Below the pieces are notes generated by a model, which was not told the origin of the DNA, made no database searches, and was given only the letters and a program-made list of their open reading frames with translations. The position numbers were made by a program, and so were the translations under genes. 6,389 nt of DNA from Acidobacteriaceae bacterium (GTDB taxonomy: Bacteria > Acidobacteriota > Terriglobia > Terriglobales > Acidobacteriaceae), in NCBI GenBank assembly GCA_025462805.1, contig JAOAPJ010000195.1:1-6389 (forward strand), read 5' to 3'. This document shows positions 1 to 6,389 of the stretch, piece by piece (positions within the stretch are counted from its first letter, which is position 1; each line of letters begins with the position of its first letter).

Positions 1-576
1 CCGATCCTCATGCACATGGAAGTCCGGCAGCGTTTTCTGCTTCTCCGGCTCGATCTCCAGCAGGACCACATTCTCGGGCTCATGGTCGGCCACGATCACC
101 TGCCGCAGCCGGTCCCAGTAGCCGGCATCGCCCAGGCCGCCGAGCAAACCGTTCAGATCCGCGGGCAGCGCGAAGTTGCTGGCATAGCTCGCGACCAGCA
201 CCGACTGAAATCCGAAGATAGAAGGGAACGCCTGCAGCTCCACCAGCCGTGGTCCCAGCGTTCCATCCTGCTCGCGCACCAGCCCGAAGTCTGCCGTCAT
301 GAAATGGGGCCGCACCGGGCAGTGCGGCACACGAAAGCGCTCCGGCACCGCATCCTCGGAAGCCTTCAGGAACGCTTCGTTGTTCAATAGCTGCTCAGTC
401 AGCTCCGCGCCCGTGTCCACAATGCGCTGCATCAGTGATTGGGAAAAGAAGCACGGCGTCTCCGAAATCCGGAACTCGAGCTTCGCTCGCGAGCGGCGCG
501 CACACTCTTCCAGCAGCGCTTGGTATCGCTCCGGCCGCCACTCCTGATTGAATGCCTGCCGCAAGCTGGGCAGCAC
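1..576 (-). CDS. Uncharacterised protein, 3' end cut by window edge; last visible gene of the amidoligase operon
   Basis: The first 192 codons are visible and the frame runs off the left edge without a stop. I chose the GTG at 574-576 because a strong Shine-Dalgarno sequence, GGAGGAGG (complement of 581-588), lies 4 bases upstream. The protein is acidic-aromatic and soluble-looking, with no signal peptide or membrane segment. Notable stretches are PHCPVRPHFMTADFG (residues 84-98), RLVELQAFPSIFGFQS (110-125), and LLEIEPEKQKTLPDF (172-186). I do not recognise the family with certainty. The L-V-E-L-Q and L-E-I-E-P-x-x-Q-K-T patterns recall uncharacterised proteins loosely related to circularly permuted ATP-grasp or glutathionylspermidine-synthase-like enzymes, but that is weak inference from memory. 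It lies 41 bases behind the aminopeptidase gene and on the same strand, so it is probably co-transcribed with the ligases. That the gene is real is well supported by codon pattern and ribosome site; its function is open. Confidence 0.8.
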   Translation of the reverse strand, partial: MLPSLRQAFNQEWRPERYQALLEECARRSRAKLEFRISETPCFFSQSLMQRIVDTGAELTEQLLNNEAFLKASEDAVPERFRVPHCPVRPHFMTADFGLVREQDGTLGPRLVELQAFPSIFGFQSVLVASYASNFALPADLNGLLGGLGDAGYWDRLRQVIVADHEPENVVLLEIEPEKQKTLPDFHVHEDR

Positions 577-580
577 GCAG

Positions 581-588
581 CCTCCTCC
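581..588 (-). promoter_or_regulatory. Ribosome binding site deciding the GTG start at 576
   Basis: On the minus strand this reads GGAGGAGG, close to a perfect anti-16S match, 4 bases before the GTG (7 bases if the first GGAGG pairs). No ATG, GTG or TTG occurs in frame for a long way upstream, so this site fixes the start of the leftmost gene. Confidence 0.75.
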
Positions 589-617
589 GCAACAGAAATC
601 AAAACGCCTTAGGGGAT

Positions 618-1658
618 CTAAATCAAGAACCGGCCCTCGCGCATGATCTGCTCTTCGCCATCCGCGCTCTCGAGCCAGATATTGAAATTCAGCCCCACCA
701 CATCGATGTGCGTCGACGAACTCCACTGCGCGCCCGTGTGTTCGCCATACGGATCGCCGAACGCAATGTGGATGCCGGGGAACTTCTCGTCCTGCAGAAT
801 ATTGCCGATCACATGGGTGACGCCGATGTTGGTGCCGATAGCAAACTCGCCCACCCGGTTCGAGTTTTCGTCCCTATGCGTGTACTCCCAGAAGTCATCT
901 TGCAACTGGCTGTTGCTGGAGGTGCAGGCCACGATACGGTTGTTCGTAATCGTAATCGTGAGCGGTGTATTTGCCAGCGATCCGTAACGCTGGCACAGGT
1001 AGTCGCCCACCACGCCATCCACCACAAACGTGCCGTTCACCTCGCCTGGCGCAGTAAACACCTCACCGCCTGGCAGGTTCCCCCACTTGTCCGGACTGAT
1101 GATGCCGCTCGTCTTCAGCCACTTGTAGTTCGGATTCAGCTCTGCCCGGATCTCCGTCCCCGCCGCCGTGGTGGCGCGCACTGCCGTAGCCGCGCTCGCG
1201 CGCTCCAGCACCCGCTGGCTTAGCCGGTCCACCGCCGCGAAGTCGGCGCGCATCCCCTCACGCATGATCTGCGGCGTAATGTTCACCATGTGCGCGTGGC
1301 GCATGCGCCGCCGGTTTACCACCTCCGTCATCTGCCGGCGGCTGTGCAGTTCGTTCTGCTGCACCTGGACCGCGAAGATCGATACGTCGCTCGTCTCCAT
1401 ATCGCCCAGCACCTCCGTGGGCATGCCGGTCAGCGGGCGCGGCGCCAAGTCTTCCAGGACAAACGCGTTCCACCTGCACCCCAGCGCCTCCAGCTTTCGC
1501 GCAATCGAGGCCGCGATCGGCGCCGTCGCCTGATCGGTGATCAGGGTCACCTTCTCGCTCGGCTGAATGCGCAGGCAAGTGGTCACGGCGCTCTGCGCGC
1601 CGGGGGTGAAGTCGGCAGGGAAGGCGAGGTCGAGAAGCTCGGTTCGGGCGATGGTCAT
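618..1658 (-). CDS. M29-family metallo-aminopeptidase (aminopeptidase T/AmpS-like)
   Basis: A cytoplasmic-type exopeptidase that would remove N-terminal residues using a two-metal centre. The frame can be read from a TTG at 1667 (349 residues), but I prefer the ATG at 1658 (346 residues), which has GGAG just upstream. Numbered from the TTG, the metal-site pattern of the family is intact: Glu202 in LPGGEVFTAPGE, Glu274 in GEFAIGTN, His300 in GIHIAFGDPYG with Tyr307, and His320 and Asp322 in STHIDVV. These correspond to the Glu, Glu, His, Tyr, His and Asp ligands and catalytic residues known in thermophilic AmpS. The N-terminal third (to about residue 150) is the substrate-side domain. There is no signal peptide. 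Length is slightly below the roughly 400 residues of classical M29 enzymes, matching the shorter leucyl-aminopeptidase-like branch. It lies 50 bases behind the carboxylate-amine ligase gene. A role in trimming or recycling the ligase product is inference. Confidence 0.88.
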   Translation of the reverse strand: MTIARTELLDLAFPADFTPGAQSAVTTCLRIQPSEKVTLITDQATAPIAASIARKLEALGCRWNAFVLEDLAPRPLTGMPTEVLGDMETSDVSIFAVQVQQNELHSRRQMTEVVNRRRMRHAHMVNITPQIMREGMRADFAAVDRLSQRVLERASAATAVRATTAAGTEIRAELNPNYKWLKTSGIISPDKWGNLPGGEVFTAPGEVNGTFVVDGVVGDYLCQRYGSLANTPLTITITNNRIVACTSSNSQLQDDFWEYTHRDENSNRVGEFAIGTNIGVTHVIGNILQDEKFPGIHIAFGDPYGEHTGAQWSSSTHIDVVGLNFNIWLESADGEEQIMREGRFLI

Positions 1659-1661
1659 GAT

Positions 1662-1665
1662 CTCC
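1662..1665 (-). promoter_or_regulatory. Close-spaced ribosome binding site for the aminopeptidase
   Basis: On the minus strand GGAG lies only 3 bases before the ATG at 1658. The upstream TTG at 1667 overlaps this motif, so using the TTG would put the motif inside the coding region. The short spacing leaves some doubt about which codon is used. Confidence 0.45.
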
Positions 1666-1708
1666 AAAAGTCGTTCGAGTGTATCGCGCTGCGCAGTGGG
1701 CGGCCAGT

Positions 1709-2818
1709 TCAGAACAGCCCGGCCCGCGTCTCCTCCGCCATGTAATCCACCACGGCGTTCAGGTCCCCGTCCATCTCCTTGAACTTGCGCAGTTGCCGCT
1801 GCGCCCCCGATCCGTTCTCCAGGATCGTGTGAATCGACTCGATCGCCTCACGACTGCCCAGCTCATCCACGCAGTCATCTACGAAGTGCAGATACTCCAG
1901 GATCAGCTCGCGCTCGTCCACCTCGATCTCTTTGCCGAAATCGATCAGCTTGCCCTCGAGACCATACCGCACCGCGCGCCATTTGTTCTCCATCAGCAGT
2001 GCCCGCGAATACTGCCGGTAATCCTGGTTGCTCTCATGCAGCTTCCACAGCTTCATGGCCGTCGCCTGTATCAGCGCCGCAATCGCGATCGTCTCCTCGG
2101 CGCGCATCGGCAGATCGCAGATGCGCACCTCCACCGTGTTGAAGAAGGGGTGCGGCCGTATGTCCCACCACAGCTTCTTCGCGTTATCCATGCAGTTGGT
2201 CTTGATCAGCAGGTTGCAGAAGTACTCAAACTCACCCCAGCTCGCAAACGAATCGGGCAAATTCGTCCGCGGAAATTTATCGAACACTTTCGCGCGATAG
2301 CTCTTCAGCCCCGTGTCATGCCCGCGCCAGAACGGTGAGTTCGTCGAAAGCGCCAGGATATGTGGCAGGAAGTAGCGCATCGAGTTCATCACCCGGATCG
2401 CCGCCTCCCGGTCTTCGATGCCCACATGCACATGCAGGCCGAAGATCAGGTTCGCGCGTGCCACCGTCTGCAGGTCTTCGACAACCTGCGCATATCGCTC
2501 GTCGGGATAGATGTCCTGCGCGCGCCAGTCCGCGAACGGATGTGTCGCCCCGGCCACCAGCACCAGCTCATGCTCCTCGGCCAGCGCGATCATCTGCCGC
2601 CGCAGGTCGTACAGGTCGTCACGCGCCTCCTGGATCGTCCGGCAGATGCGCGTCCCCACCTCCACCACCGACTGGTGCATCTCCGCCTTCACCCGCTCTT
2701 CCAGGCGGCGCTTGCCCTTGGCCAGCATCTCCGTCTTGATGTGCGAGCGCAGATCGCGCGTCACCGGGTCAACTGTCTGGTACTCCTCTTCGATCCCAAG
2801 GGTGAAGGACGGACGCAT
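1709..2818 (-). CDS. Carboxylate-amine ligase, GCS2/YbdK family (glutamate-cysteine-ligase-like)
   Basis: Predicted to join a carboxylate to an amine using ATP through an acyl-phosphate. Family members include gamma-glutamylcysteine ligases and E. coli YbdK, whose true substrates are often unknown. The 369-residue length fits the family. Visible signatures are LGIEEEYQ at residues 7-14 (metal-binding acidic cluster), HQSVVEVGT at 48-56, GATHPFADW at 90-98, GLHVHVG at 127-133, the stretch RPHPFFNTVEVRICD at 221-235, and ENKWRAVRYG at 277-286. All are in the expected order, so the enzyme looks complete and active. The frame extends to a TTG at 2833, but the ATG at 2818 has GGGAG 8 bases upstream, and the protein then begins MRPSFTLGIEEE as expected for the family. 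It follows the ATP-grasp gene by 57 bases and precedes the aminopeptidase by 50. The substrate is not evident: glutamate plus cysteine is possible, but in this context another acid/amine pair is equally likely. Confidence 0.93.
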   Translation of the reverse strand: MRPSFTLGIEEEYQTVDPVTRDLRSHIKTEMLAKGKRRLEERVKAEMHQSVVEVGTRICRTIQEARDDLYDLRRQMIALAEEHELVLVAGATHPFADWRAQDIYPDERYAQVVEDLQTVARANLIFGLHVHVGIEDREAAIRVMNSMRYFLPHILALSTNSPFWRGHDTGLKSYRAKVFDKFPRTNLPDSFASWGEFEYFCNLLIKTNCMDNAKKLWWDIRPHPFFNTVEVRICDLPMRAEETIAIAALIQATAMKLWKLHESNQDYRQYSRALLMENKWRAVRYGLEGKLIDFGKEIEVDERELILEYLHFVDDCVDELGSREAIESIHTILENGSGAQRQLRKFKEMDGDLNAVVDYMAEETRAGLF

Positions 2819-2826
2819 GTGGAACG

Positions 2827-2831
2827 CTCCC
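2827..2831 (-). promoter_or_regulatory. Ribosome binding site deciding the ATG start at 2818
   Basis: On the minus strand GGGAG is separated from the ATG at 2818 by 8 bases. The alternative TTG (2831-2833) overlaps this motif, which argues against it. Confidence 0.65.
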
Positions 2832-2875
2832 AAAGAACTCGAGTCCAGCTGAATTGTGCCCAGGTGAATCAGTGC

Positions 2876-3973
2876 TTATGCAGACGGCGTCTCTGCCGCC
2901 TTGGTGGCCTTCGCTGCTGCGGATTTCTTTGCCGCCGGCTTGGGTGCAGCCACCTTCTTTGCCCCAGCGCTCTTCGTCGCTGTCTTCTTCCCGCCCGTCT
3001 CTTGGCCACCGCCGGACGTTTCGGCCCCGCCGATCGGCTGTCCCGACAGGAACGACGACCACACAAACCCGCTCGCCGGGGCACCCGCATGCTTCTGCGC
3101 CTGCTCCACGGCCATCTCCGCCACTGCATCCACGATCCAGCGGAAGTTCACCTCGCCCACCGAATGGACATCTGCATCCGGCGCCGGATTCATGAAGTCG
3201 ATTGCGTACGGCACGCCGTCTTCCACGGCAAACTCGACCGTGTTCAGGTCGTAGCCCAGCGCCCGGCACAGCGTCAGCGCGTCCTTCTCCACCCGCTCCA
3301 GCAACCCCGGCGCATACTCCGGGGCATCCTTCACATAGCGCTCGTGGAACGGCCGCCGCGGATCATAGGGCATGATGTGCACCTTCTGCTGGTTGATCAC
3401 GTAACAGCGGAAGTACTCATTGAATTTCACCGCCGCCTGCAGCGTCATACACAGATCGCCGGTCTGGTCATAGGCGCGGAAGAACTCCTCCCAGTCGTGT
3501 ACGTGGTACACATCGCGCCAGCCCCCGCCGTCAAAGGGCTTCAGGAAGGCAGGGAATCCAACATAGTCAAAGATGGCCTTCCAGTTCAGTGGGAACTCCA
3601 GGTTCCGCATGGAGCGCTCGGTCGTCCCCGGCGGATAGTGCTTGTGCGGCAGCAGCACCGTGCGCGGCACCGCCACTCCCAGCTTGCGTGCCAGCGCATA
3701 GTTAAAGAACTTATCGTCCGCCGACCACCAGAACGGGTTGTTGATCACCACTGTTCCGGTCAGCGCCGCGTTCTTCAGGTAGCCGCGATAGAACGGAATA
3801 TCATGCGAGATGCGATCCACAATCACGGCATAGCCGCTCGGCTCTGCCTCCCGTACCCCGCCCACCTGTACTGACTCCGCCGTGATGTCGGGCAGCCCCA
3901 TGCCGTTAATGCGCTCCACCAGCGCACCAGGGAAGGTGTTCTCCATCCCGTACAACACCCCGATCTTCTTCAT
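2876..3973 (-). CDS. ATP-grasp family ligase with lysine/alanine-rich C-terminal tail
   Basis: Predicted ATP-dependent carboxylate-amine (or thiol) ligase of the RimK/D-Ala-D-Ala-ligase fold. From the ATG at 3973 it has 365 residues. Residues 1-80 form the pre-ATP-grasp domain (KKIGVLYGMENTFP at the start). The ATP-grasp core shows DDKFFNYALARKLGVAVPRT (86-105), GFPAFLKPFDGGGWRDVY (139-156, with Lys145 and the glycine loop), a central VKFNEYFRCYVI (182-193), and NTVEFAVEDG...YAIDFMNPAPD (244-267), where Glu247, Asp259 and Asn262 probably hold magnesium. Residues from about 313 to 365 are low-complexity: a Gly-rich linker, then a tail with ten lysines in 37 residues (AKK, PKPAAKK and ATKAA units). 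Most homologous folds lack such a tail. The frame extends to a GTG at 4000, but the ATG at 3973 has GGGAGGAG 6 bases upstream. It lies 34 bases behind the esterase gene. The substrate is unknown. Confidence 0.9.
   Translation of the reverse strand: MKKIGVLYGMENTFPGALVERINGMGLPDITAESVQVGGVREAEPSGYAVIVDRISHDIPFYRGYLKNAALTGTVVINNPFWWSADDKFFNYALARKLGVAVPRTVLLPHKHYPPGTTERSMRNLEFPLNWKAIFDYVGFPAFLKPFDGGGWRDVYHVHDWEEFFRAYDQTGDLCMTLQAAVKFNEYFRCYVINQQKVHIMPYDPRRPFHERYVKDAPEYAPGLLERVEKDALTLCRALGYDLNTVEFAVEDGVPYAIDFMNPAPDADVHSVGEVNFRWIVDAVAEMAVEQAQKHAGAPASGFVWSSFLSGQPIGGAETSGGGQETGGKKTATKSAGAKKVAAPKPAAKKSAAAKATKAAETPSA
2879..2992 (-). other. Coding segment for histone-H1-like Lys/Ala/Pro tail
   Basis: This part of the ATP-grasp gene encodes roughly residues 328 to 365, made almost only of Lys, Ala, Thr, Pro, Ser and Gly, preceded by a Gly/Ser/Glu linker. 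The short motif A-K-K recurs (338-340, 348-350), as does T-K (333-334, 357-358). Such basic tails elsewhere bind nucleic acids or polyanions, or are simply disordered. A role here cannot be assigned. Confidence 0.75.
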
Positions 3974-3979
3974 CTCCTG

Positions 3980-3987
3980 CTCCTCCC
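3980..3987 (-). promoter_or_regulatory. Ribosome binding site deciding the ATG start at 3973
   Basis: On the minus strand GGGAGGAG is 6 bases before the ATG; a second AGGAG directly abuts the start codon. This supports the ATG over the in-frame GTG at 4000, which would lie upstream of the ribosome site. Confidence 0.75.
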
Positions 3988-4007
3988 GCCTGCGGTTCAC
4001 CGTCCGT

Positions 4008-4718
4008 CTACAAATACACTTCCATCATGCGCTGCCAGGTAGGCCAGTCGTGGCTGTTCCAGCTATCCCAGATGACAAGCTGGTGATGCACACCGCGGCT
4101 GCCCAGTACGTAAGACAGATGCTGATTTACCCCCAGGCACTGGTCGTCCCACCCCGTCGCCAGGATGTAAGTGTTGCGCCGGTAGTGGTCCAGATACCAG
4201 GGATCGTCCATGTTCGCCAGGTAGTGCGGCGGCATGTTGAAGTACACATCCTCATCGTAGTAGCCGTGCAGGAAGTTCGAGATATCGAAGGCGCCCGACA
4301 TTGAAAGGAATCCGGTGAACACATCCGGATGCCGCAGCGCCAGGTTCACCGCGTGGTAGCCGCCGAAGCTGCACCCCAGCGTGATCAGGTGCGGGTCTTC
4401 GTTCTTCTGGCGGACCAACCGCAGAACCTCCTCCAGAATGTAGTCCTGATACTGCACCTGCCGCGCGATGCGCCACTGCGGCGGCACGTTGCGGTTGTAC
4501 CAGCTCTCGGCATCGAGCGAGTCGACACAGTACAACTGAATCTCCCCGTTATCGATCTTGTGGCCGATCGAGCCCACCATGCCGCGATCCTCAAACTCGT
4601 AGAAGCGCGCCTGCGAGCTGGGAAACACAATTGCCGGCACCCCGGCATGCCCGAACAGCAGCAGTTCCATCTCCCTGCCCAGGCCCGGTGAGTACCACTT
4701 GTGATATTCGCGATGCAT
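4008..4718 (-). CDS. Alpha/beta-hydrolase esterase (COG4947-like), first gene of the operon
   Basis: A soluble serine esterase of 236 residues from the ATG at 4718. The nucleophile elbow is LGCSFGG (114-120) with Ser117. Candidate acid residues are Asp191 or Asp192 in TGWDDQC, and the catalytic histidine is His223 in SWNSHDWPTW. The N-terminal section HREYHKWYSPGLGREMELL leads into VPAIVFPSSQARFYEFED, typical of the uncharacterised esterases often found beside ATP-grasp and GCS2 ligases. There is no signal peptide. The frame can be extended to a GTG at 4796, but that adds 26 residues of unrelated-looking Cys/Arg/Pro-rich sequence. The ATG at 4718 has AAGG 6 bases and GGAG 12 bases upstream. 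The stop lies 34 bases before the ATP-grasp start, so the two are probably co-transcribed. The natural ester is unknown; release or maturation of the ligase product is inference. Confidence 0.9.
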   Translation of the reverse strand: MHREYHKWYSPGLGREMELLLFGHAGVPAIVFPSSQARFYEFEDRGMVGSIGHKIDNGEIQLYCVDSLDAESWYNRNVPPQWRIARQVQYQDYILEEVLRLVRQKNEDPHLITLGCSFGGYHAVNLALRHPDVFTGFLSMSGAFDISNFLHGYYDEDVYFNMPPHYLANMDDPWYLDHYRRNTYILATGWDDQCLGVNQHLSYVLGSRGVHHQLVIWDSWNSHDWPTWQRMMEVYL

Positions 4719-4899
4719 GCGTCGCCTTGGCTCCAGGTGCCCTGCTGCCTGCGCTGGCCCTGCGCGGCTGAGCTTGATAGGCTGACAGCAGAGCACTCAA
4801 TGTAGCAGAGCCGCCCGCCCTCGCACCGCATCTATTGGGCAAGGTCCGCGCGCCGCTTTCGAAACCGCTGAGGAGAGCATCCATCCTGGGACACTGCCG
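4719..4899. other. Divergent intergenic region
   Basis: These 181 bases separate the minus-strand operon from the plus-strand esterase and should carry promoters for both directions. The sequence is GC-rich except for a short AT-richer patch around 4771-4806. I see no strong inverted repeat, riboswitch-like structure or terminator. Parts may be coding if either flanking gene uses a more distant start: the plus frame is open back to a TGA at 4783-4785 but has no ATG or GTG. Confidence 0.6.
4774..4800 (-). promoter_or_regulatory. Possible sigma-70-like promoter for the five-gene operon
   Basis: On the minus strand TTGAGT (complement of 4795-4800) is followed after 15 bases by TATCAA (complement of 4774-4779), each matching four of six consensus positions. 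Spacing is shorter than the ideal 17. It lies about 55 bases before the chosen ATG at 4718. The same 4774-4779 patch reads TTGATA on the plus strand, a good -35 element, but I find no convincing -10 for that direction. This is a weak prediction. Confidence 0.2.
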
Positions 4900-5826
4900 T
4901 TGAACGCACCGCCGCAAGACATCCAGCCCGACGCCACTGAACTGAAAATCGGGTCGACGCCCGCGCTCGTGAATGGGCCGCCCGCCGCCGCCCCTCTCCC
5001 GGGCGTCGCTCCAACTGTTGACGAGTCGCTCAGCTTCGAAGAGCCGACGCTGGTTCACGGCAAGGACCGCTTGCTCCTCCACCATCAGCTCGTCTCCGCC
5101 TTCCTGCCCGCCCGTCGCGACGTCATCGTCTCGCTGCCGCCCGGCTATCACAGGTCCTCCCTCAGCTACCCCGTGCTCTATCTGCAGGACGGGCAGAACC
5201 TCTTCGACCCTGACACCAGCTTCGTGAAGGGCAGCACCTGGGACGTGCAGACCACCAGCGACCGGCTCATCCGGGAAGACGCGATCCAGCCGCTAATCAT
5301 CGTCGGCATCTACAACACCGGGGTCGATCGGCTGGAGGAGTACACGCCCATGCGCGATCCCAAGCTGGGCGGCGGCACCGCCTCCCAATACGCGCGTCTC
5401 CTTATCGAGGAGCTGAAGCCGTGGATCGATCGGCACTACCGCACTCTCGACGGCCCCAGCTACACCGGCATCGGCGGCTCGTCATTGGGGGGCCTGGTCT
5501 CGCTCTATCTCGGCCTCTCCCATCCGGAGATCTTTGGCCGCCTCGCTGTCTTGTCCCCGTCGGTATGGTGGGCCAAGGGCGGCATGCTGCAGTTCGTCCG
5601 CCGCAGTCGGCCAGACCCACGTCCCCGCATCTGGCTCGACATGGGGCTCGCCGAAGGCCCCGGCATGGTGGCCAAATGCGATGAGCTGGCCCGCCTGCTC
5701 GAGCGGCGCGGCTGGCGCCACGGCATCGATCTCACCTACACGCGCGTCCCCGAGGCAAAGCACGAGGAAGCCGCCTGGGCGAAGCGCGTCGATCCCTTCC
5801 TGCGCTTCCTCTTTCCCGCGCAGTAG
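4900..5826 (+). CDS. Enterochelin-esterase-like alpha/beta hydrolase (COG2819/Fes-like)
   Basis: A serine hydrolase of the esterase-D/enterochelin-esterase group, 308 residues if translation begins at the TTG at 4900. The domain starts near residue 51: RRDVIVSLPPGY (72-83), YPVLYLQDGQNLFDP (90-104), then the nucleophile elbow IGGSSLGG (191-198) with Ser195. Asp248 or Glu252 (IWLDMGLAEG) may be the acid, and His288 (EAKHEEAAWAKR) is the catalytic histidine. Residues 1-50 are a Pro/Ala-rich, probably disordered extension with no signal peptide. The start is uncertain: GAGGAG at 4870-4875 is 24 bases upstream of the TTG and no ATG or GTG fits it; a GTG at 4969 is an alternative that would shorten the extension. 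It is transcribed away from the ligase operon and followed after 5 bases by the HAD gene. The substrate (ester, siderophore or cell-wall-type glycan ester) cannot be told from sequence. Confidence 0.9.
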   Translation: MNAPPQDIQPDATELKIGSTPALVNGPPAAAPLPGVAPTVDESLSFEEPTLVHGKDRLLLHHQLVSAFLPARRDVIVSLPPGYHRSSLSYPVLYLQDGQNLFDPDTSFVKGSTWDVQTTSDRLIREDAIQPLIIVGIYNTGVDRLEEYTPMRDPKLGGGTASQYARLLIEELKPWIDRHYRTLDGPSYTGIGGSSLGGLVSLYLGLSHPEIFGRLAVLSPSVWWAKGGMLQFVRRSRPDPRPRIWLDMGLAEGPGMVAKCDELARLLERRGWRHGIDLTYTRVPEAKHEEAAWAKRVDPFLRFLFPAQ

Positions 5827-5831
5827 ATAGC

Positions 5832-6389
5832 ATGGACACAATGACGACAGTCTCAGCTCAGGCGCTGCTCTTCGATATGGACGGCGTGCTCATCAACTCC
5901 ATCCCGGCGGTGGAGCGTGTCTGGTCGCGCTGGGCCGAGGCTCGCGGCTTCAACGTGCACGAGGTGCTGCGCTTTGCCCACGGCCGCCCCAGCATCGCCA
6001 CCCTGCGCGCCCTGCTGCCCGAGGCCGACCACGAAGCCGAAAATCGCATCATCGAGCAGGCAGAGATCGACGACGTCGGCGACATCGTGCCGCTCCCCGG
6101 CGTTGTCGACCTGCTCGCCGCGCTGCCGCGCGACCGCTGGGCCATAGTCACCTCATGCACGCGCTCGCTCGCCGAGGTGCGCATCCGCGCCGCCGGTCTG
6201 CCCATCCCACGCCTCTTCATCACCGCGAACGACATCACCCACGGCAAGCCGCACCCCGAGCCCTACCTGAGAGGCGCCCTCGGCCTGGGCTTCGCGCCGG
6301 AGCAATGCATGGTGGTCGAAGACGCCCTCGCCGGCATCGCCTCGGGCAAGAACGCCGGGGCACGCGTGATTGCCTTCACTACCACCGCC
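5832..6389 (+). CDS. HAD-superfamily (subfamily IA) phosphatase, glycerol-3-phosphatase/DOG-like, 3' end cut by window edge
   Basis: A predicted cytoplasmic phosphatase acting on a small phosphorylated polyol or sugar. The 186 visible residues contain all four HAD motifs: LLFDMDGVL (12-20; nucleophile Asp15, general acid/base Asp17), IVTSCTR (105-111), GKPHPEPY with Lys139 (138-145), and VVEDALAGI (161-169; Glu163, Asp164). A small helical cap lies between motifs I and II, around residues 22-90, and includes AHGRPSIATLRALLP. The run FITANDITHGKPHPEPYLRG (129-148) closely recalls yeast glycerol-3-phosphatase and 2-deoxyglucose-6-phosphatase, which is why I favour that branch. Usual length is about 220-250 residues, so some 35-60 are missing beyond the edge. 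The start is the ATG at 5832, 5 bases after the upstream stop and with no clear Shine-Dalgarno, so translational coupling is likely; an ATG at 5841 is an alternative. No link to the ligase operon is shown. Confidence 0.9.
   Translation, partial: MDTMTTVSAQALLFDMDGVLINSIPAVERVWSRWAEARGFNVHEVLRFAHGRPSIATLRALLPEADHEAENRIIEQAEIDDVGDIVPLPGVVDLLAALPRDRWAIVTSCTRSLAEVRIRAAGLPIPRLFITANDITHGKPHPEPYLRGALGLGFAPEQCMVVEDALAGIASGKNAGARVIAFTTTA

Follow-up and report, generated by a model that had tools for sequence, protein, structure and literature searches.

Amidoligase operons that mix ATP-grasp, GCS2-type and permuted ATP-grasp ligases with peptidases were reportedly surveyed by Iyer et al. in 2009, and in their best-known set the permuted ligases are said to be accompanied by an NTN hydrolase and by alpha-E, a protein of alpha-helical structure; mixed amidoligase operons are a known kind. 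We analyzed a stretch of 6,389 nucleotides from an Acidobacteriaceae bacterium (GenBank assembly GCA_025462805.1, contig JAOAPJ010000195.1, positions 1 to 6,389 of the forward strand), referred to below in its full length as the window. Its minus strand carries five consecutive genes, encoding an esterase (EST), an ATP-grasp ligase (GRASP), a GCS2-family ligase (GCS2), an M29-like peptidase (M29) and the product of a fifth gene, predicted to be a further ligase.

Several described systems share single components with this cluster. E. coli YbdK belongs to the same GCS2 family as the window ligase, but the GCS2 subfamily found here is part of a conserved multi-ligase set. The fold of RimK, LysX and ArgX is the one predicted for GRASP, although GRASP scores far under the cut-off of the rimK family (NCBIfam, 18.6 bits against 143.4), and, in contrast to LysX/ArgX-type systems, the gaps between the window genes are too short to hold the gene of a LysW-like carrier. 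Glutathionylspermidine synthetase/amidase and YgiC/YjfC have the permuted ATP-grasp fold that is predicted for relatives of the fifth gene, but at a sequence identity of 11-15%, and the hydrolases of the cluster are separate, unrelated proteins. From the alpha-E/permuted ATP-grasp tagging system the cluster differs in having no linked alpha-E gene: the alpha-E family PF04168 occurs in 34 of 199 Acidobacteriota genomes, 18 of them with GRASP, and when compared by eye was never within 10 kilobases (kb) of GRASP; on this ground the system was rejected. Finally, the ligase Cp1B of the E-64 pathway is fungal and its partner is an ANL-family amide synthetase (PMC12568646); the epoxysuccinate chemistry of that pathway was not seen in the cluster. 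Among titles and abstract openings we found no published description of this five-gene set (the survey of 2009 lay outside the comparison). Three points may be new: what the fifth gene encodes, that two families of permuted ligase replace one another, and that the co-occurrence of the genes extends beyond their linkage. The five genes of the cluster are the following.

4008..4718, minus strand: EST, alpha/beta-hydrolase esterase of 236 amino acids (PF00756)
2876..3973, minus strand: GRASP, ligase of 365 amino acids with a predicted RimK/LysX/ArgX ATP-grasp fold
1709..2818, minus strand: GCS2-family carboxylate-amine ligase of the YbdK/PRK13515 type (NF010039, PDB YbdK 1r8g)
618..1658, minus strand: short M29-like metallo-aminopeptidase of 346 amino acids (PF02073, conserved residues)
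1..576, minus strand: fifth gene, predicted third ligase, N-terminal 192 residues, with a GTG start at 576 and open at base 1 of the window

We propose, with a probability of about 0.72, that these genes encode a non-ribosomal, carrier-free amide-ligation pathway, in which three ligases and the accompanying hydrolases build a small peptide or a peptide-amine. The RimK/LysX-fold ATP-grasp enzyme, the YbdK-type GCS2 enzyme and the permuted ATP-grasp enzyme would each couple a single carboxylate with a single amine, and these ATP-dependent ligations would run in a fixed order to yield the product. The esterase may free or unmask a carboxylate on a substrate or on the product, and the M29-type aminopeptidase, or another hydrolase in some lineages, would strip off an amino acid, N-terminal or gamma-linked, whose earlier role was that of a building block or of a protecting group. 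The proposal draws directly on the gene set, the predicted folds, the conserved likely catalytic residues and the co-occurrence in two phyla reported here; from these we infer one common product, the order of the steps, the roles of the hydrolases and the substrates.

The preliminary description of this DNA, made from the sequence alone, had presented the cluster as a cassette of two amide ligases with a peptidase and an esterase, followed by an unrecognized fifth protein. The cassette stands, and by predicted fold it holds three amide ligases, not two, because full-length relatives of the fifth gene (approximately 400 amino acids) are predicted to fold as circularly permuted ATP-grasp enzymes of the YgiC/glutathionylspermidine-synthetase type. 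On this predicted fold we rejected the view of the fifth gene as some undefined accessory. Its N-terminal fragment in the window matched no Pfam or NCBIfam family, no Pfam family was convincing for the third ligase in searches with 29 relatives, and the 16 Pfam families that one or more of these relatives hit at E 1 do not include PF03738 (GSP_synth). PDB sequence searches with both ATP-grasp families, GRASP and the fifth gene, gave weak matches. Among the best 120 of at least 7999 relatives of each of the two ligases, those that carry a source name are mostly labeled 'hypothetical protein' or generic ATP-grasp, and a single one is labeled 'glutathionylspermidine synthase'. A fifth-gene fusion was considered in two loci (L083, L084) and rejected: the matches to the fifth gene and to its neighbor lie in different frames, and the long open frames were therefore read as high-GC read-through.

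The other family assignments of the preliminary description held as well: esterase, GCS2 and M29 all passed the respective Pfam cut-offs, and the ATP-grasp call for the second gene, for which Pfam gave nothing at E 0.001, holds by its predicted fold. GCS2 matches PF04107 with 230.6 bits (cut-off 21), passes the carboxylate-amine ligase models NF010039 (537.9, cut-off 371) and TIGR02050 (319.2, cut-off 176.4), and aligns with PDB YbdK 1r8g over residues 1-358 of 370 (E 1.2e-59). For GRASP, RimK is among the best matches of the predicted fold. EST matches PF00756 with 36.6 bits (cut-off 22, E 5.4e-9), and 18 of the 19 sequences in the alignment keep its residues S117, D192 and H223, which we take to be the likely catalytic Ser-Asp-His. 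Locus L072 (L072:9246-9953), whose genome is also without the fifth-gene family, has lost the three of them. M29 matches PF02073 with 56.2 bits (cut-off 27) in an alignment limited to residues 157-344 (profile 204-406), and E199, E271, H297, H317 and D319, presumably the metal-ligand positions, are invariant in 20 of 20 sequences. Three of these five residues align to AmpS; in profile matches AmpS 1zjc (E 3.6e-4) is closely followed by the dioxygenase 7cn3 (E 0.0032).

The arrangement of the genes is compatible with joint expression. The gaps between them measure 34, 57, 50 and 41 bases; these gap lengths are identical to those of the preliminary description. No coding-strand terminator-like site lies within the four gaps (two minus-strand sites fall inside genes), and no sigma-70-like match was obtained anywhere in the window; a single transcript of all five genes is plausible. 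Considering the gaps only, these are too small (34-57 bases) for a carrier-protein gene or for a precursor-peptide gene such as a graspetide RiPP cluster would contain.

To follow the cluster in other genomes we scanned GTDB for GRASP and analyzed the best 80 of at least 568 confirmed loci, many of which stop at contig edges; their phylum labels were taken from record titles. The gene-neighborhood check suggested in the preliminary description came out positive, as the five families do recur together. GRASP was present in 79 of the 80 loci, GCS2 in 67, M29 in 58, EST in 53 and the fifth gene in 44, and the neighboring families were less frequent (20 loci for EST2, a second esterase described below, and 12 for the next commonest). 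Of the 51 loci with sufficient flank, 24 show all five genes in order in a stretch of at most 12 kb. In loci with enough flanking DNA to tell, the two members of a pair were within 2 kb of each other in 35/58 for EST/GRASP, 53/66 for GRASP/GCS2, 46/49 for GCS2/M29 and 34/45 for M29/fifth gene. In the loci from Verrucomicrobia and Ignavibacteria GRASP is 58-61% identical, and the gene order is largely kept while the flanks are mostly not shared. The Didemnitutus locus L078 (Verrucomicrobia) has the five genes in order. Locus L076, titled Ignavibacteriae (Bacteroidota in GTDB), holds the fifth gene together with GRASP, GCS2 and M29, and its genome carries an EST relative on a separate contig. 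L077 and L079 contain EST, GRASP, GCS2 and the fifth gene, and M29 is not in between. For L009 (titled Edaphobacter), L012 and L073, whose loci have no fifth gene, the gene turned up in another part of the genome; for L072 it did not.

At the level of whole genomes the association extends to genes that are not neighbors. Among the 199 Acidobacteriota genomes GRASP occurs in 59 and EST in 58, with both in 56 (17.2 expected); in these 56 the two genes lie within 10 kb in 27, on different contigs in 28 and 73 kb apart in one. EST (56/59), not the peptidase, is thus the most faithful partner of GRASP, and M29 with strong matches is the rarest (E<=1e-100; 15 of the 25 matching genomes, 14 of the 15 with GRASP). 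The GCS2 subfamily of the window was found in 44 genomes (43 at E<=1e-125, and G158, counted on a partial match of 67% identity), 43 of them with GRASP, while in the 20 genomes with other GCS2 subfamilies only, GRASP was found once. The fifth-gene family has 23 carriers, 22 among the 59 GRASP genomes and one among the 140 others. We then sampled 148 genomes of a second phylum, that of the Ignavibacteriae genome G005. Here GRASP occurs in 60 and EST in 63, both being present in 58 (25.5 expected), within 10 kb in 27, farther apart on one contig in six and on different contigs in 25. The fifth-gene family was detected in 33 of 40 tested GRASP carriers and in none of 40 non-carriers; this test covered 40 of the 60 carriers (two of the 20 omitted have only weak GRASP), and the non-carriers were also EST-negative, five EST-positive, GRASP-negative genomes having been left out. 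The gene set is a real unit, tightly co-occurring in two phyla. With GRASP in 59/199 Acidobacteriota and 60/148 second-phylum genomes, such a pathway would have a wide distribution.

The place of the fifth gene is apparently taken in some genomes by a second permuted ATP-grasp family (PF14403/PF04174, here the X family). The copy in L108 scores above both cut-offs and that in L102 above the cut-off of PF04174 only. This family lies between GCS2 and GRASP in L102 and L110 and adjoins one of the two in L097 and L108. Strong matches (E<=1e-73; 29 of the 37 matching genomes) occur in 29 of 199 Acidobacteriota genomes, of which 28 also have GRASP, and in 25 of the 29 the gene is within 10 kb of GRASP or GCS2. 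The 59 GRASP genomes divide into 20 with the fifth-gene family only, 26 with the X family only, two with both and 11 with neither. BLASTP similarity between the two families is near nil (pair E 0.003), and by these sequence distributions they appear to interchange in one slot. Two barely similar permuted families in one slot lead to the testable prediction that they carry out a shared chemical step. A TPMT-like methyltransferase is encoded between GRASP and the X-family gene in L102 (L102:6628-7227, minus strand).

The peptidase slot seems to vary as well. M29 was not found in the cluster at loci L077, L079, L084 and L095. Between GCS2 and the permuted ligase, in the position of M29, loci L085 and L088 encode a protein with Cys-His-Glu-like motifs, and a relative of this protein is encoded about 1.7 kb past EST2 in L095. 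Judging by motifs only, it may belong to a Cys-His-Glu hydrolase class; it gave zero Pfam or PDB sequence matches, and its relatives (best 120 of 2454) are hypothetical or unnamed.

Several observations weigh against the proposed pathway. Function does not follow from a common fold, and we infer 'peptide or conjugate' as the product class. Parts of the set are missing from many genomes: the matching GCS2 subfamily from 16 of the 59 GRASP genomes and both permuted families from 11 (six of these have a weak GRASP match only), and strong M29 matches occur in only 14 of the 59. In a number of loci, L027, L030 and L075 among them, few of the partners accompany GRASP; within the fetched stretch L073 has GRASP and GCS2 only and L075 GRASP only. 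Since GCS2, the permuted families and M29 are missing in part of the GRASP genomes, either some members are dispensable in certain genomes or they go unseen in drafts. Genes on different contigs of a draft genome may still be near each other, although G130 has both EST and GRASP deep in long contigs. EST orthology is uncertain, because relatives in scattered genomes (L098, L101, L103) share no more than about 36% identity with the window EST. The sampled genomes are related and not independent, so that Fisher values overstate the association, and the thresholds for GCS2, M29 and the X family were chosen after the score gaps had been seen.

A more specific form of the proposed pathway is a glutathionylspermidine- or trypanothione-like system assembled from non-orthologous parts, which we regard as possible, if doubtful. 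In this form GCS2 would form a gamma-glutamyl bond, the RimK-fold enzyme would extend the product, and the permuted ligase would cap the peptide with a polyamine or another amine. The M29-type or Cys-His-Glu hydrolase would act as the reversing amidase, and the esterase might detoxify adducts. If true, this would mean a widespread unrecognized peptide-polyamine metabolite of Acidobacteriota, Bacteroidota/Ignavibacteria and Verrucomicrobia.

We consider it unlikely that the cluster encodes a glutathione-like low-molecular-weight thiol pathway, in which GCS2 would make gamma-Glu-Cys or a similar compound, the ATP-grasp enzyme would attach the third residue, replacing GshB, and the esterase would correspond to S-formylglutathione hydrolase. 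The pairing of GCS2 and ATP-grasp follows the logic of glutathione synthesis, formylglutathione hydrolase 7yvt is among the weak PDB matches of EST (E 0.048), and replacement of GshB is conceivable because 58 of the 59 GRASP genomes are without a strong canonical GshB N-domain (G074 has a weak one above the Pfam cut-off). However, this absence is weak evidence, because GshB is rare overall (strong in 10/199 genomes, above the Pfam cut-off in 14) and nine of the ten strong carriers have a different GCS2 subfamily; the distribution of strong GshB over GRASP genomes (1/59) and others (9/140) involves few cases and could point either way. Moreover, the third ligase and the peptidase would be superfluous, and GCS2 reaches the carboxylate-amine ligase models only, remaining under every glutamate-cysteine ligase cut-off (NF010043, 365.8 against 409; TIGR02048, 83.2 against 249). 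Plain glutathione enzymes were rejected as candidates on these cut-offs and on the absence from GRASP of the GSH-S Pfam domains of prokaryotic GshB (E 0.001), in agreement with the earlier view that glutathione does not fit: both enzymes failed the plain glutathione-enzyme models tested. The genomes with strong GshB and a different GCS2 subfamily are G096, G115, G124, G133, G142, G159, G167, G175 and G191, which suggests that this other subfamily is the glutathione GCS2.

That the cluster modifies a protein, with the RimK-like enzyme adding residues to a protein tail and the other enzymes helping or reversing this, seems improbable to us. RimK glutamylates ribosomal protein S6 and is among the best fold matches of GRASP, and a possible target is the C-terminal tail of GRASP itself. 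From about residue 314 (window 2876-3034, minus strand) this tail is Lys/Ala-rich and predicted with low confidence, and 14 of 44 scored relatives have a Lys-rich tail. One GRASP relative, P0083, carries PF07382, presumably a histone-like family.

Salvage of amines or dipeptides is, in our estimate, equally improbable. Here an amine would be gamma-glutamylated and the product hydrolyzed, as in the PuuA-PuuD route of putrescine, in which gamma-glutamylation of the amine is followed by hydrolysis. The pairing of ligases with hydrolases and the Cys-His-Glu-like protein of L085 and L088 are consistent with this, but the motif reading of that protein found no match in Pfam or PDB, and identified neighbors are scarce: a major facilitator superfamily (MFS) transporter in 6/80 loci, an aldo/keto reductase in 12/80 and an aldehyde dehydrogenase by EST once. 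Three ligases favor building over breaking. Chance neighbors kept by descent alone are the least credible explanation, for although most of the 80 loci are titled Acidobacteriota, the order is conserved across phyla while flanks change, and co-occurrence holds where the genes are not seen together.

Under the amide-ligation pathway, which we prefer, identification of the product would give names to several orphan enzyme families, and a new compound, be it a small thiol, a peptide-amine or a protective substance, might come to light.

Beyond EST the window continues with two features, from which point EST2 and a HAD hydrolase are oriented opposite to the cluster (4900 onward).

4719..4899, no strand: intergenic gap of 181 bases between EST and EST2, a possible control region by position only
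4900..5826, plus strand: EST2, divergent second esterase, loosely associated with the cluster (PF00756)

EST2 matches PF00756 with 110.8 bits. Beyond the divergent esterase, several loci contain RimM-type (9/80) and KH-like (10/80) genes, as in L009:6531-7706 and similar loci. The aldo/keto reductase family (L003:5044-5994 and 11 more loci) often adjoins M29, and the aldehyde dehydrogenase adjoining EST is a single case, in L109. Mur-ligase genes near GCS2 (L081) or GRASP (L082) were rejected as pathway members, being confined to two loci and surrounded by unrelated genes such as AceK. The locus L063, titled Rhodanobacteraceae, holds an Acidobacteriaceae-like copy of the cluster with a GRASP identity of 77%, possibly a binning error. 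In L104 (L104:9567-12779) divergent GRASP and EST genes are followed by a further ATP-grasp gene, which may belong to a sister pathway.

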